In this document: in pieces, positions 27,075 to 32,673 of the stretch
Position numbering within the stretch: position 1 is the first letter of the stretch
How the letters are laid out: every line of letters starts with the position of its first letter
Virus record (IMG/VR): IMGVR_UViG_3300042904_000351
Location: 1-33,453 of that record
DNA length: 33,453 bases
Reading direction: 5' to 3' (one strand)
Source of the DNA: a virus
Notes under the pieces: generated by a model
Databases searched by the model: none
Told to the model about the DNA's origin: nothing
The model's input: the letters and a program-made list of their open reading frames with translations, nothing else
Program-made: the position numbers and the translations under genes

Positions 27075-27440
27075 TCACCCCACTTCCGGAACAGCGTGCT
27101 TACCGAGGCGCAAGAGTCGGTTGATGTCCTCGTCGGACCACGGCACCCGTGCCGCTCCCATATCGGCGGCCGACACGAGCATCTGCGGTGAGCGCCGGCG
27201 GGTGTGCCAGCGCCGCGCGAGCATGACCGTCCCGAGCTTGAGCGTGTAGCCGGGCACCGGGAGCGTGGACGGCTGACCGGTGAAGTTGAACCTACCCAGG
27301 TGGATGCGCTCGACGAACTCGACGGCCGCGTCAAAGACACGCGCGAGGCGCGCGGCCTCGGCGTCGCTGAGTTCCGACGCGTCCTCCGCGTCCTCGTTCA
27401 GCTCGTTGACGAACTCGTCGAGCGTCACCCACCCCGGCAT
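27075..27440 (-). CDS. Head-tail adaptor-like protein
   Basis: A 121-residue mostly helical protein (LSDAEAARLARVFDAAVEFV, then LARRWHTRRRSP and WSDEDINRLLRLG). Small helical proteins of this form after the capsid gene are usually gp6-like adaptors that join the portal to the tail. ATG at 27440. The family assignment is by shape and position. Confidence 0.65.
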   Translation of the reverse strand: MPGWVTLDEFVNELNEDAEDASELSDAEAARLARVFDAAVEFVERIHLGRFNFTGQPSTLPVPGYTLKLGTVMLARRWHTRRRSPQMLVSAADMGAARVPWSDEDINRLLRLGKHAVPEVG

Positions 27441-27877: not shown

Positions 27878-30800
27878 TTACGCAGCGTTGTCGTCGTACG
27901 CGAACTTGCGGACACCGTCGGTGCGCGTGCACGCGAAGGCCTTGTAGCCCCAGATCGCGATGTCGACGAACGCCACGCGGTACTCGAAGTCGAGACGCTG
28001 AGGCGCCGACGCCCAGCCGTGGACGTCCTCCCGGTTGAAGATGTAGGAGTCGCTCTCGACGTTCGTGGTGTAGGGCAGCGCCCACGCGGGGCGTCCGGCC
28101 AGACCGGCGACGTTCAGCGAGGCCATAAGCGGACCGGCCGAGCCGTCGGCGTTCTGCGGGCCGAGGATCGGCAGGAGCTTGCGCCCGTCCGCGTCCTTCG
28201 CCTGCGACAGCTTCTTGTAGAGGCCCTTCTCCAGGAAGAAGTCCTGGAAGCGGAAGCCGCCACGGATGAAGTGGAGATCCACGATCGCGCCCGTGACCTC
28301 GTCCACCAGGACGTCATCCTCGGCGCCGTCGGTCAGCGTGATCGTGGTGACCGTGAGGCCTTCGAGGAGCGACGCGGCACCCTGCTCCAGGGCCTCGTCC
28401 CACGCCCGGACCATCTGACGCCACAGGATCGTGGAGAGCTGCGGGTTACCACCCTGGTCCCACGCCTCACGCGTGATCTCGACCTTGCCGGAGACGGCCG
28501 ACGGGGTGATCGTCTGCGACGTGGTGGTCAGCGCGCCCGGCGTCGGCTCAGTGCCCTGAACGTGGTCACCCACCAGGCCCGAGCTCGTGTTGAACTTCGG
28601 CAGGACAAAGGGCGTGTTGTCGGCGATCGAGCCCTTCTTGATCGCGTCCCAGATCGGCGTCGGGTACTGGAGCTGATCGACGTACATGTCCGGCCGGTTG
28701 ATGTTCGGGTTGAGTGACGCGACGTTCGACGTGGTGACGGCGAACTCCGCAACCCGGCGGTTGTACTCCCGGTCGGAGAAGTACTCGCCCAAGAACTTCT
28801 GTGCGCGGTTCAGCGCTTCGTAGTCCTTGTTCTTGTGGGCGGCGACCAGGTCCGAGCTGAAGTCGTGGTCACCCCGAATACCATCGAAGCGGTAGCAAGG
28901 GGCTTCCTTCACCTCGAACTGAGCGATGCGCTTGCCGGTCGCCGGATCGACAGCCTCCGGGCGCTGCTGGGCCTCGATCAGGTCCTTCAGCGAGTCCTGG
29001 AAGGCCTCGAACTGAGCGCCCATCGCCTCCGTCGCAGCGGTCACACCCGCCGTCACAGCGGTGCTGAAGGCCGCGGCAGCCGTGTCACTCAGTTCGAGCG
29101 TGCCGACGCCCCCGCCCTTGTTCTTGTCCTCGTCGGCCATCGGCCCAGTCCTTTCGTTTCGTGAAGCGCGCACGGACGTCAGCCGCGCATCGTCGAACGA
29201 CGGTGCCGCGGTAAGCGCACACCCAGTCAGTTGTCCGTTGTGGACGTCGCGCACGAAGTCGTCTCCGGCTTCGGTGACCGACCACGACTCGGCGCCGGCG
29301 GGGAACGAGACCTCGATCGAGAACCCGTCCTTCACCTTGTCCTCGGCGTTGATCAACGCCTTGTCGCCGTCGTCGCCTCGGCCGATCTTGAACGTGCCCA
29401 TTAGCCCGCGCGACGTTGACCACACCTTCTGGGCGTAGCCGACGGCGTTGCGCCGGTCGTGGTCGAGGTTCAGCTTGATGCGCGTGGTGTCGGTCCACTT
29501 CAGCGAGTCCTTGCCGAAGCGCCACTTCGCGAAGGTGCCGGAGTTGACCTTGTTCCACGGCACCATGAGCCCGGTGATCGTGCGCTTGTCCAGGTCGGCG
29601 CTGAAGAGCTCGGCGTCATCGTCGTCGACCGCGAACGTCAGCGTGACGTCGTCGGTCTCCGCCTCCGTGCCGTTGACCCGGCTGAACGCCGCACTGACAG
29701 GCGCCGTGGCTGCGACCTTGGCACGACGTGGGGCCAGTTCATCCGGCGCCGCAGGCGGCTTCTGAGCGGCCGTCCGCTGCTCCTTGGCCCGACGCTCCAG
29801 CTCCGGATTCGGGTCGAGTCCTTCCACTTCGCGCACCTCCGCGATGTCCATTGCGCCGATCTCGACCGCGATCTTGTGGCACGCCCAACGCGTTGCCGGA
29901 TCGGCCTTCAGGTAGTTGTTCAGGAAGAACGAGACAGTGTGCCCGCGGCGCGTCACGTCGTTCATCGAGAGCCGGTCGGTGATCGCGCTCATGTACATGG
30001 AGAACACGTCGTTGATTCGGTCCTGCCGGCGGTCCACACCGTTCTGGTAGGTGCGCGAGGTCGTCGAGACGTTGAGATCTTCCGCGTCGAGACCCATCGC
30101 GTTCGCTACGCCGATGATCGCGTTCTTCAGGATGTCGATCAGCTGGAGTTCGACGGGAGACAGCACGTCGACCTGCTTGAGCTCCATCGAGCCGGGAACG
30201 TAGCCGGTGGTGTTCGTCTTGCGCGCCTTGTGCCAGTTGTCCAGCAACTCGATGATGTCCGTCTTGCCGAGGGGATCAGCGTTCGGGTCCGGCGTGAAGT
30301 ACTCCTGCGCTCGCGTGTTGTCGGCATACCGGACGCCGGAGTTCTGGAGCAGGAGTAGGTGCCGGATCGAGCGCGCCGCAGCACGGAGCACACCAGGATT
30401 CGGTGAGTCGAACCGGATCAACACCGGGCGGCCGAGGGAGTCGCGCACGGGCGTCGGAACGCCTTCGACGTACACCGTGCCCACCGGGAGCTTCTGCTCC
30501 GAGGGCAGCGTACGAAGACCCTTCGCGTGGTCGCTCGGCGGATTCATGCTGACGGTGTTCGCATCGAGCTTCTCGGCCGACGTGGGGAACCCGGCCGAGT
30601 CCCAGTCCGTACAACGCCACCAGGCGTAACCCTCGAAAACGAGGTCCTCGACCGTACCGGCCATCGTCACGACGTTCGGTGTGTTCGGGTCGATTTGCTT
30701 CAGCAGGTTGTTCTCGACGCGCTTCCCTTTGCCGTCCCGCACGTGCATGGGGAGCGTCGAGAACGAGCACAGCAGGTTCCGGCCGCGTAGAACGACGTCT

Positions 30801-30985
30801 GCGGAAAGGGCCATGCGCTTCGTGACGGGCTGCTCGAACTGGTATTCCGGCCGCTGCGTTGCGGCGATCGCGGAGTCGATCGGCGTCGGGATGTCGGTAG
30901 AGAATTTGATGGAAGGCTCCGGCGCATCGGCGGACGCGCCAGGAGCCCTACCCATCCACCCGAACCAGTCACCAAGGATGCCCAC
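27878..30985 (-). CDS. Portal-prohead protease-major capsid fusion protein
   Basis: A single open frame of 1035 residues contains three usually separate head proteins. Residues about 1-430 are an HK97-type portal (GILGDWFGW at the start). About 435-610 are a U35-type prohead protease: RTITGLMVPWNKV, His509 in LDHD and Ser556 in DGFSIEV as catalytic residues. From 616 (MADEDKNKGGG) is the HK97-fold major capsid protein with its N-terminal scaffold-like delta region (about 630-690). The capsid part has its own ribosome site and ATG, so it can also be made free. The portal start is uncertain: GTG 30985 gives the family-like MGILGDWFG, but no clear ribosome site exists; GTG 31003 adds six residues. 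Confidence 0.85.
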   Translation of the reverse strand: MGILGDWFGWMGRAPGASADAPEPSIKFSTDIPTPIDSAIAATQRPEYQFEQPVTKRMALSADVVLRGRNLLCSFSTLPMHVRDGKGKRVENNLLKQIDPNTPNVVTMAGTVEDLVFEGYAWWRCTDWDSAGFPTSAEKLDANTVSMNPPSDHAKGLRTLPSEQKLPVGTVYVEGVPTPVRDSLGRPVLIRFDSPNPGVLRAAARSIRHLLLLQNSGVRYADNTRAQEYFTPDPNADPLGKTDIIELLDNWHKARKTNTTGYVPGSMELKQVDVLSPVELQLIDILKNAIIGVANAMGLDAEDLNVSTTSRTYQNGVDRRQDRINDVFSMYMSAITDRLSMNDVTRRGHTVSFFLNNYLKADPATRWACHKIAVEIGAMDIAEVREVEGLDPNPELERRAKEQRTAAQKPPAAPDELAPRRAKVAATAPVSAAFSRVNGTEAETDDVTLTFAVDDDDAELFSADLDKRTITGLMVPWNKVNSGTFAKWRFGKDSLKWTDTTRIKLNLDHDRRNAVGYAQKVWSTSRGLMGTFKIGRGDDGDKALINAEDKVKDGFSIEVSFPAGAESWSVTEAGDDFVRDVHNGQLTGCALTAAPSFDDARLTSVRASRNERTGPMADEDKNKGGGVGTLELSDTAAAAFSTAVTAGVTAATEAMGAQFEAFQDSLKDLIEAQQRPEAVDPATGKRIAQFEVKEAPCYRFDGIRGDHDFSSDLVAAHKNKDYEALNRAQKFLGEYFSDREYNRRVAEFAVTTSNVASLNPNINRPDMYVDQLQYPTPIWDAIKKGSIADNTPFVLPKFNTSSGLVGDHVQGTEPTPGALTTTSQTITPSAVSGKVEITREAWDQGGNPQLSTILWRQMVRAWDEALEQGAASLLEGLTVTTITLTDGAEDDVLVDEVTGAIVDLHFIRGGFRFQDFFLEKGLYKKLSQAKDADGRKLLPILGPQNADGSAGPLMASLNVAGLAGRPAWALPYTTNVESDSYIFNREDVHGWASAPQRLDFEYRVAFVDIAIWGYKAFACTRTDGVRKFAYDDNAA
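29138..29154 (-). promoter_or_regulatory. Internal ribosome site and ATG for free major capsid protein
   Basis: Inside the fusion frame the minus strand reads AAAGGA (29149-29154), 8 bases, then ATG (29138-29140), in frame. It would give a 420-residue capsid protein (27878-29140), the normal HK97-type size. No similar internal start is visible at the protease boundary. The site is seen; its use is inferred. Confidence 0.7.
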
Positions 30986-31044
30986 GCCGAGAACGATACG
31001 CACGAGATCACGAAAACGGCCAAAATTGCAAGGTAATGCAAATT

Positions 31045-32673
31045 CTAGGAAATGTGCGACGGAAGCACGATTCCCGTAGGAGTGCTGGTCACAGGCATGG
31101 TGCGTGCAAGATACGACGCGCCGGCGGCAGCGTAGTAGCCGTCACAGTGCCCGTCGTCCTGCCGGGCGACGACCCATCGAGCACCGACCATGAGCTTGTC
31201 GGCCCCCGGCACATGCACGTTCAGCAACGGGTCGTCCGGGTGCGCGATCAGCTTGTCGCGCACGTCCTTCGCGAAGCCCATGCACACCGACGACGTCTCA
31301 CCGCGCAGCGGCTCGACGACCGTGCGCCGCGGGAGCCACGCCGGCCGCTTGCCGACCATCTTGAACTCGCCCGTGCTCTCGTCGACCTCGGCGCCGAGGA
31401 GTGTGGCGGCCTGCGATGCCGCCGGACCGCCGGGGAACCACCCGATAGCCCGCGGGTTGATCAGCTTGACCTGCGCGCGGAAGCCCCGGGCGAAGTCGCG
31501 GATCTCGCTCGCGTCCCACGAGCGTACGACCTCGACCCGCACCCGGTCGTCCGGGAGGACCGCCGCGGCGACGAGCGTCGCGTGCTGTTCATCGGCCGAG
31601 AAATCGAAGCAAAGAACGATACGATTCCTGAAAGCCGAAAGATCACCGATATCCTTGCATGCAAGCCAATCTTCCACCAGCACGGCCGGGTCTGCCGCCT
31701 CGACCTTGATACACATCTTCTCGGTCTTGAACCCGACGAGTTTCTGACCGCCGAGGCGAATAGCCGTCTCCGCTTCAGCAAGCAAGTCGTCGCTGTCGTT
31801 GCCTCGGCGATTCATGTTCGGATTCGCCTGCGCGAGCGCCATAATGTCATTCGGTTTGGCATCGGGGTTCGCGCTGTACTCGATGAGTCCGACGCGCGGG
31901 TCTCCTACGCCCTCTTCAATGAACTTGATCGCTTCGTCTCGCCAATCGTTCAGCACGACGGACTTCGCGCTACCCGCATTGCTCAATCCCACGATCATCG
32001 AGGACCACGGCACGGTGGTCGTCGGCTCGGAGGCATCCCACGCGCTGTAGTCATGGTGGTGCCGGAGCTCGTCGAGCACGAGACGTTCGTTCGTCTGCGA
32101 TCGGCCGCCCTTCTCGTTCGCCGGGGCGATCTTGTACTTGCTGCCCGTCTCCAGGCGCCGCTCTTCCTCGTCAGCACGCCAGAGCACCACACCGCCGTTC
32201 ACCGTCTTGACGGCGCCACGGTGCGCGATCTCGGCGTACATCTCCGGCCGACGCTTGGCGAGGATCTTCGCCTTCTCCCACGCGTCCTTCGCGTACTCCA
32301 GCTTCGTACTGGTGCCGAGAATCTGCGACACCCGCTGAACGAACATCCAATAGAGCGTGAGCACAACACACAGATGTGTCTTGCCGTTCTGCCGAGCGAC
32401 AAGAATGAGCAACTTCTTGTAGCGCGTGCGCCCGTCGGGCAGGAGCTCGAACCCGTGAATGACCGTCCATTCCTGCCACGGGTCCAATGGCGCGTCGAGA
32501 TCCTCCCTCGCGAAATCGATGATGTCGAATCCGAGGGAGGTCTCCGGTGTGAGCTCTCTAAGCGGAGGGGTCCACAGTCGAGGAACCGTAAGCCCGAGCA
32601 CTTTGCTCTCTGGCGGCAGATGCAGCCCTCCGCCGTTCAAGGCTAGTGGGCTCTGGTTTTCCTGAACTAGCAT
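31045..32673 (-). CDS. Terminase large subunit
   Basis: A 542-residue packaging motor. ATPase: the TPPLRELTPETSLGF leader, an adenine-motif-like DPWQEW, Walker A-like VARQNGKT at 92-99 and Walker B LVLDE at 198-202. Nuclease: CFDFSADEQHA with Asp357, and a C-terminal DGY segment. It cuts concatemers and drives DNA through the portal. ATG at 32673 overlaps the small-subunit gene by 116 bp, longer than usual; GTG at 32601, with GAGAG upstream, is a possible later start that would shorten the overlap. Confidence 0.93.
   Translation of the reverse strand: MLVQENQSPLALNGGGLHLPPESKVLGLTVPRLWTPPLRELTPETSLGFDIIDFAREDLDAPLDPWQEWTVIHGFELLPDGRTRYKKLLILVARQNGKTHLCVVLTLYWMFVQRVSQILGTSTKLEYAKDAWEKAKILAKRRPEMYAEIAHRGAVKTVNGGVVLWRADEEERRLETGSKYKIAPANEKGGRSQTNERLVLDELRHHHDYSAWDASEPTTTVPWSSMIVGLSNAGSAKSVVLNDWRDEAIKFIEEGVGDPRVGLIEYSANPDAKPNDIMALAQANPNMNRRGNDSDDLLAEAETAIRLGGQKLVGFKTEKMCIKVEAADPAVLVEDWLACKDIGDLSAFRNRIVLCFDFSADEQHATLVAAAVLPDDRVRVEVVRSWDASEIRDFARGFRAQVKLINPRAIGWFPGGPAASQAATLLGAEVDESTGEFKMVGKRPAWLPRRTVVEPLRGETSSVCMGFAKDVRDKLIAHPDDPLLNVHVPGADKLMVGARWVVARQDDGHCDGYYAAAGASYLARTMPVTSTPTGIVLPSHIS

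Follow-up and report, generated by a model that had tools for sequence, protein, structure and literature searches.

The window analysed here, a virus record of 33,453 bases (IMGVR_UViG_3300042904_000351), carries on its minus strand a single head gene (positions 27878-30985, stop included; 1035 amino acids) in which an HK97-type portal, a predicted prohead protease, a scaffold-like region and a major capsid domain follow one another in one frame. Comparison of the sequence with its relatives supports a nested organization with two predicted products: a full-length chain whose translation starts poorly and a capsid protein whose translation starts well. The fused gene is the head gene of tailed phages of soil actinobacteria that form a large and mostly uncultured clade. 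Protease-capsid and portal-MuF fusions were known already, and the feature that seems new is that portal, protease and capsid share a single frame across a clade; our literature search, which covered open-licence papers, found no published account of a single gene for these three proteins, and an earlier report is possible.

The frame is free of stops over positions 27878-31003, which corresponds to 1041 residues counted from the first GTG (31003) and to 1035 counted from the GTG at 30985. The N terminus encoded from the latter codon, VGILGDWFG, resembles the start of an HK97-type portal, and the residue numbers of the family alignment (56 sequences) are counted from it. Directly upstream, on the same strand, is the gene for the terminase large subunit (31045-32673; PHROG 9, E = 4e-60), which was also found just upstream in 81 of the 95 fused loci with room for it, and downstream, again on the minus strand, is a head-tail connector gene (27075-27440; PHROG 5938, E = 5e-15). 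The rest of the window comprises terminase, connector, tail, tape-measure, lysis and replication genes, and none of the other open reading frames on the searched strand of the window was matched as a second portal, protease or capsid gene by the same profiles. No terminal repeat of at least 10 bases is present in the window. The window is probably the whole genome, in a circular or permuted form, because the sister contig L018 reads straight through from the end of the window to its beginning (85% identity across the 33453/1 junction). The predicted tail fibre protein, encoded on the minus strand, contains a collagen-like Gly-X-Y repeat (positions 112-1089 of the window).

The initial annotation, which gave no strand, described an HK97-type portal, a U35 protease (His509, Ser556) and a complete capsid domain in one uninterrupted frame, and this description is borne out by Pfam and PHROG profiles, residue conservation, AlphaFold2 and Foldseek. 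The portal domain occupies approximately residues 44-407 (29765-30856, minus strand); it matches Pfam Phage_portal PF04860 above the gathering cut-off (E = 4e-17, residues 81-395) and PHROG 12, "portal protein" (E = 2e-15), and the best PDB match to its fold in Foldseek is the HK97-family portal 3KDR (E = 3e-16). It is followed by a linker predicted to be disordered (residues 413-459, 29609-29749, minus strand; pLDDT <50) and by a U35/HK97-type prohead protease domain at approximately residues 460-603 (29177-29608, minus strand), the fold of which matches Proheadase_HK97 in BFVD. The putative catalytic pair comprises His509 (29459-29461, minus strand), conserved in 54 of 56 rows of the alignment, and Ser556 (29318-29320, minus strand), invariant in all 56, in agreement with a predicted Ser/His prohead protease of the U35 type. 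Residues 464-1036 match PHROG 2263, "major head protein" (E = 2e-31), a family that covers both protease and capsid.

A second linker modelled as disordered (residues 604-645) leads to a long helix, residues 637-673 (28967-29077, minus strand), assigned by AlphaFold2 secondary structure, which by its position would be a scaffold (delta-domain)-like element. The HK97-fold major capsid domain then extends over approximately residues 692-1035 (27881-28912, minus strand); it matches Pfam Phage_capsid_4 PF25209 above the gathering cut-off (E = 1e-7, residues 758-1022), and its best PDB matches in Foldseek are HK97 heads (1OHG and 2FT1). Structure prediction, which had been proposed as a check on the domain assignments, thus modelled the portal, protease and capsid modules alike. 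The AlphaFold2 model from the 56-row alignment consists of three folded modules joined by disordered linkers, with a mean pLDDT of 74.8 and a pTM of 0.44, and the relative placement of the domains in this model carries no meaning.

An assembly or sequencing error that fuses separate genes had been named as a finding that would overturn the assignment, and it is conceivable in principle since the two genes of the relatives overlap in different frames and a single-base error could merge them. However, the same open frame is present, with no indels, in contig L002, which comes from another assembly and has approximately 90% DNA identity to the window, as well as in approximately 100 distinct relatives from independent assemblies that include cultured genomes, and all the close relatives found are likewise open. 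An error of this kind can be dismissed as having a negligible chance. Between L002 and the window there are 141 synonymous codon differences and 21 that change an amino acid; a chance open frame is ruled out by the domain matches, the conservation and these codon changes.

The fusion was regarded in the initial annotation as unusual, but it is not an oddity of this genome: the census and the tree indicate that it is the normal arrangement of a large clade. The fusion recurs in each of the nine terminase relatives at 44-50% identity. An alignment of eight fused proteins retrieved 365 relatives among viral contigs, the 80 highest-scoring of which were retained, and gave 22 loci in bacterial genomes assigned to Amycolatopsis, Prauserella, Saccharomonospora, Micromonospora, Salinispora, Asanoa, Kribbella, Jiangella, Streptomyces and an Aurantimicrobium bin. 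The resulting census, the viral part of which is the best 80 of 365, holds 108 entries in which a single open frame encodes all three of portal, protease and capsid. Some entries are overlapping pieces of one contig (e.g. L002, L005, L007 and L018), and the number of distinct fused loci, in viral contigs and prophages, is therefore approximately 100; for the analysis of start sites a non-redundant set of 89 fused genes was used. The only census loci that are not fused are distant comparison loci and two contig-end fragments from one Prauserella genome. Retention of the 80 best scorers may have left loci with a separate portal under-represented, and the search was therefore widened outward. Among the loci reached from known two-gene portals, the portal is separate in every one in which both parts are visible, and 151 Micromonosporaceae genomes contain approximately seven fused loci and two with two genes. 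A phylum-wide search matched one of 396 genomes, namely the centre genome, and a first genome scan with a single fused protein as the query gave no match. Among 50,697 phage records there was no place that covered 80% of any of three fused queries, and isolated members of the fused clade thus seem to be absent from this collection. Two genomes in the set contain more than one locus: Micromonospora mirobrigensis has two different fused-gene loci (L098 and L115), and Kribbella jiaozuonensis has two (L107 and L111) with identical match statistics on two scaffolds. Cultured lysogens in which the copy is intact include M. mirobrigensis DSM 44830, with both of its loci, Salinispora vitiensis and K. 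jiaozuonensis.

A first tree, built from the portal and protease domains, places the fused loci in one group (SH-aLRT 100) that requires one change. When two Micromonosporaceae two-gene loci, L165 and L166, are added, they are sisters of the fused group and the best tree still has one change, with support of 71/94 and with one change in 67% of the bootstrap trees. The fusion is thus most simply explained by a single origin, for which support is only moderate once L165 and L166 are included. The nearest unfused relative found, L165 (G442:C18:12300-16800, from a Micromonosporaceae genome), has two genes, and an ATGA read in two frames supplies both the stop of its portal gene and the start of its protease gene; an overlap in another frame is likewise seen in phages of Arthrobacter, Curtobacterium and Microbacterium. 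The starting state was most simply a portal gene that overlapped a protease-capsid gene in another frame, and a small indel at an ATGA-type overlap would have sufficed to produce the fused frame.

The predicted nested product begins at an ATG at position 29140 and comprises the scaffold region and the major capsid domain (27878-29140, minus strand; 420 residues). It is preceded by the Shine-Dalgarno sequence AAAGGA (29149-29154, minus strand) with a duplex energy of -10.9 kcal/mol, whereas the candidate first starts of the full-length frame have energies of -2.4 and -1.7 kcal/mol; all ribosome-site energies given here are predictions. The best ribosome site and start codon between protease and capsid lie 9-16 codons past the end of the protease profile in 87 of the 89 non-redundant fused genes, and the predicted internal product has a median length of 421 residues, with approximately 76 residues ahead of the capsid profile. 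This plan is close to that of HK97 gp5. The first start is weak in the family too (the median of the best candidate is -5.6); its real strength could exceed what the predicted energy implies if translation is leaderless or coupled.

With strong sites defined as those with an energy of -8 or lower and an ATG or GTG, their density is 7.1 per 100 codons in the post-protease zone and 0.2-0.8 elsewhere. Pooled over the family, 82 strong sites were observed in this zone as compared with 35.7 +/- 4.1 in synonymous shuffles that preserve protein and codon usage. Elsewhere the numbers are below the shuffle expectation, at 91 vs 127 in the portal, 50 vs 67.5 in the protease, 14 vs 25 in the rest of the second linker and 55 vs 110 in the capsid. 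This depletion of ribosome-site and start pairs in the portal, protease and capsid coding regions looks as if spurious internal starts had been selected against. Gene by gene, 23 of the 89 reach p <= 0.05; the individual test is weak because the protein is held constant, and the family-pooled test is the decisive one. The ribosome site occupies all three codon phases (55/27/7), and therefore no common protein motif accounts for it. Between the window and L002 there are no synonymous changes in codons 610-628, the total number of changes being too small for significance. The proposal of an internal start for the capsid protein is therefore strongly backed by the comparison, with its conserved position (87/89), its pooled excess (82 vs 35.7 +/- 4.1) and a first start that is nearly devoid of a ribosome site. 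Six of the eight known two-gene phages examined, and approximately half of the two-gene loci, also have this internal start, which for this reason probably predates the portal fusion. In 42 of the 89 internal capsid products a CxxC occurs within the first 12 residues, often as CxxCGxxHxxGxxC (e.g. MDPCATCGQVHAAGVAC; L008, L015, L023, L026 and L045 are examples), possibly a zinc knuckle right at the N-terminal end of the scaffold region; the protein of the window itself has no CxxC motif.

A candidate second internal start, which would give a protease-capsid product, is found at 29825-29840 (minus strand), where the GTG at 29825-29827 is preceded by the near-perfect ribosome site GGAGGTG (29834-29840) with a predicted energy of -13.1. 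At almost the same place, L020 and L094 have an ATG with a strong site. In the family, enrichment near the portal-protease junction is moderate with a cut-off of -8 (60 of 89 loci vs 39.1 +/- 3.5) and absent with a cut-off of -10 (18 vs 21.0), and the positions are scattered. Production of a protease-capsid protein from such a further start is possible in some members and maybe, from GTG 29827, in the window too; two-gene relatives have a protease-capsid protein of this kind.

We think it probable that this is a nested head-assembly gene, in which a few full-length chains would build the portal ring and serve as a tethered seed, the bulk of the capsid would come from the internal start, and the parts would be released by self-cleavage. 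The weak first start would provide a small number of full-length chains, and their portal parts would form a 12-fold ring in which each subunit brings a single copy of the protease, scaffold and capsid domains. In portals the C-terminal end faces the head interior, which is also where the protease and scaffold are located, and because of this the order of the fused domains suits the seed model; the ring would place the tethered domains at the portal vertex, inside the growing prohead. The internal start would supply the bulk scaffold-capsid protein of 420 residues, similar to HK97 gp5, which would assemble around the seed, and the tethered proteases would then cleave the scaffold region off the capsid domain and probably cut the linkers as well, thereby freeing the portal. 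The HK97 portal is an assembly hub that is contacted by 30 capsid N-domains (PMC10275583), and nucleation at the vertex by full-length chains would, by analogy, be compatible with such portal-capsid contacts. A more specific proposal, which we hold tentatively and at somewhat less than even confidence, is that a covalent seed nucleates each head, with the portal ring, 12 tethered proteases and 12 capsid subunits entering as a unit and being freed by self-cleavage in maturation. The twelve tethered capsid domains may be a steric misfit and may perhaps be cut off before assembly.

A simple polyprotein, in which the full-length chain yields everything by self-cleavage and the internal start is idle, would agree with an unbroken frame that includes its own protease and with linkers that, being disordered in the model, would be accessible; natural protease-capsid fusions proposed to be self-cutting are also known (Nocturne116/PAJU2, PMC8306868). 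However, portal and capsid would then be made in a 1:1 ratio and the conserved internal ribosome site would be left unexplained, and we regard this scheme as improbable. A virus head requires 12 portals and hundreds of capsid subunits. It is also conceivable, if rather unlikely, that the nesting serves expression only, the fusion doing no more than reducing the output of portal and protease from a chain that is cleaved before assembly and has no role at the vertex. The weak first start and the strong internal start are what this would predict, and a fusion of single origin may persist without a new role, but the two overlapping genes of the relatives, with their different ribosome sites, already provide such control, and in the close relatives found the fusion has never been lost through a stop. 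The analogy with the relatives would lead one to expect a free portal ring, and programmed frameshifting is frequent in phage tail chaperones; nevertheless, the sequence contains nothing that requires the portal to be made alone in addition, by a programmed frameshift or premature termination close to the first linker, and this has a very small probability.

How exactly one portal becomes incorporated is a long-standing question (PMC10275583), on which a clade with a single chain, and with capsid predicted to come mostly from an internal start, constitutes a natural experiment; a block of the internal start or of the protease would be expected to trap defined intermediates. If the nested head-assembly reading with its covalent seed is true, the single portal, the dose of protease and the capsid subunits that begin the shell would be delivered together as one unit. 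The fused genes match portal, protease and capsid families together, and their annotation is affected because one label on such a gene conceals the other domains.

The closest known parallels are found in small actinophages, for which protease-scaffold-capsid fusions have been reported and tied to small genomes, in a set that includes Arthrobacter clusters AN, AX and FE, Gordonia clusters CW and DM, Microbacterium cluster EE and Rhodococcus phage RRH1 (PMC7302621, PMC5513430). These phages share with the window the gene order, a homologous portal and protease, and the presence of protease, scaffold and capsid in one frame, and the post-protease ribosome site and start are found in Adaia, Arielagos, Decurro, Penoan, BurtonThePup and RRH1. 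Unlike the window, they have a separate portal gene, either with a 4-8-base overlap in another frame or with lysis genes in between, and their genomes are approximately 14-18 kb as compared with 33.4 kb; similarity between their capsids and that of the window was not detectable by tblastn. Protease-capsid fusions, perhaps self-cutting, have been discussed for other phages as well (PMC8306868). In the portal-MuF fusions reported for Microbacterium clusters EA and EB and Arthrobacter cluster AK (PMC7302621, PMC5513430), the portal is likewise joined to the next head gene, but the partner is MuF and there is no protease or capsid domain.

The HK97 head module has the same three folds and a scaffold-like region at the N terminus of its capsid protein, but portal, protease and capsid are three separate genes. 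In lambda C/Nu3, an in-frame internal start within the head protease gene gives a shorter assembly protein, an arrangement that resembles the nesting predicted from sequence in the window, except that portal and capsid domains are absent and Nu3 is scaffold only. The Amycolatopsis plasmid pAmyYIM10 (L006) has distant homologues of all three proteins, likewise in the order portal, protease, capsid, but each is encoded by a gene of its own and a small gene separates the first two. This plasmid (NZ_CP045481.1, 40 kb) looks like a phage-plasmid, and two Corynebacterium plasmids of 14-17 kb (NZ_CP047356.1 and NZ_CP063192.1) carry phage head genes and look like small phage genomes. The record OR067381.1 (H1), labelled Pseudomonas phage Hadban with P. 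aeruginosa as the host, has the layout of a small actinophage and query match coordinates that are those of Arthrobacter phage Adaia; its host label looks odd.
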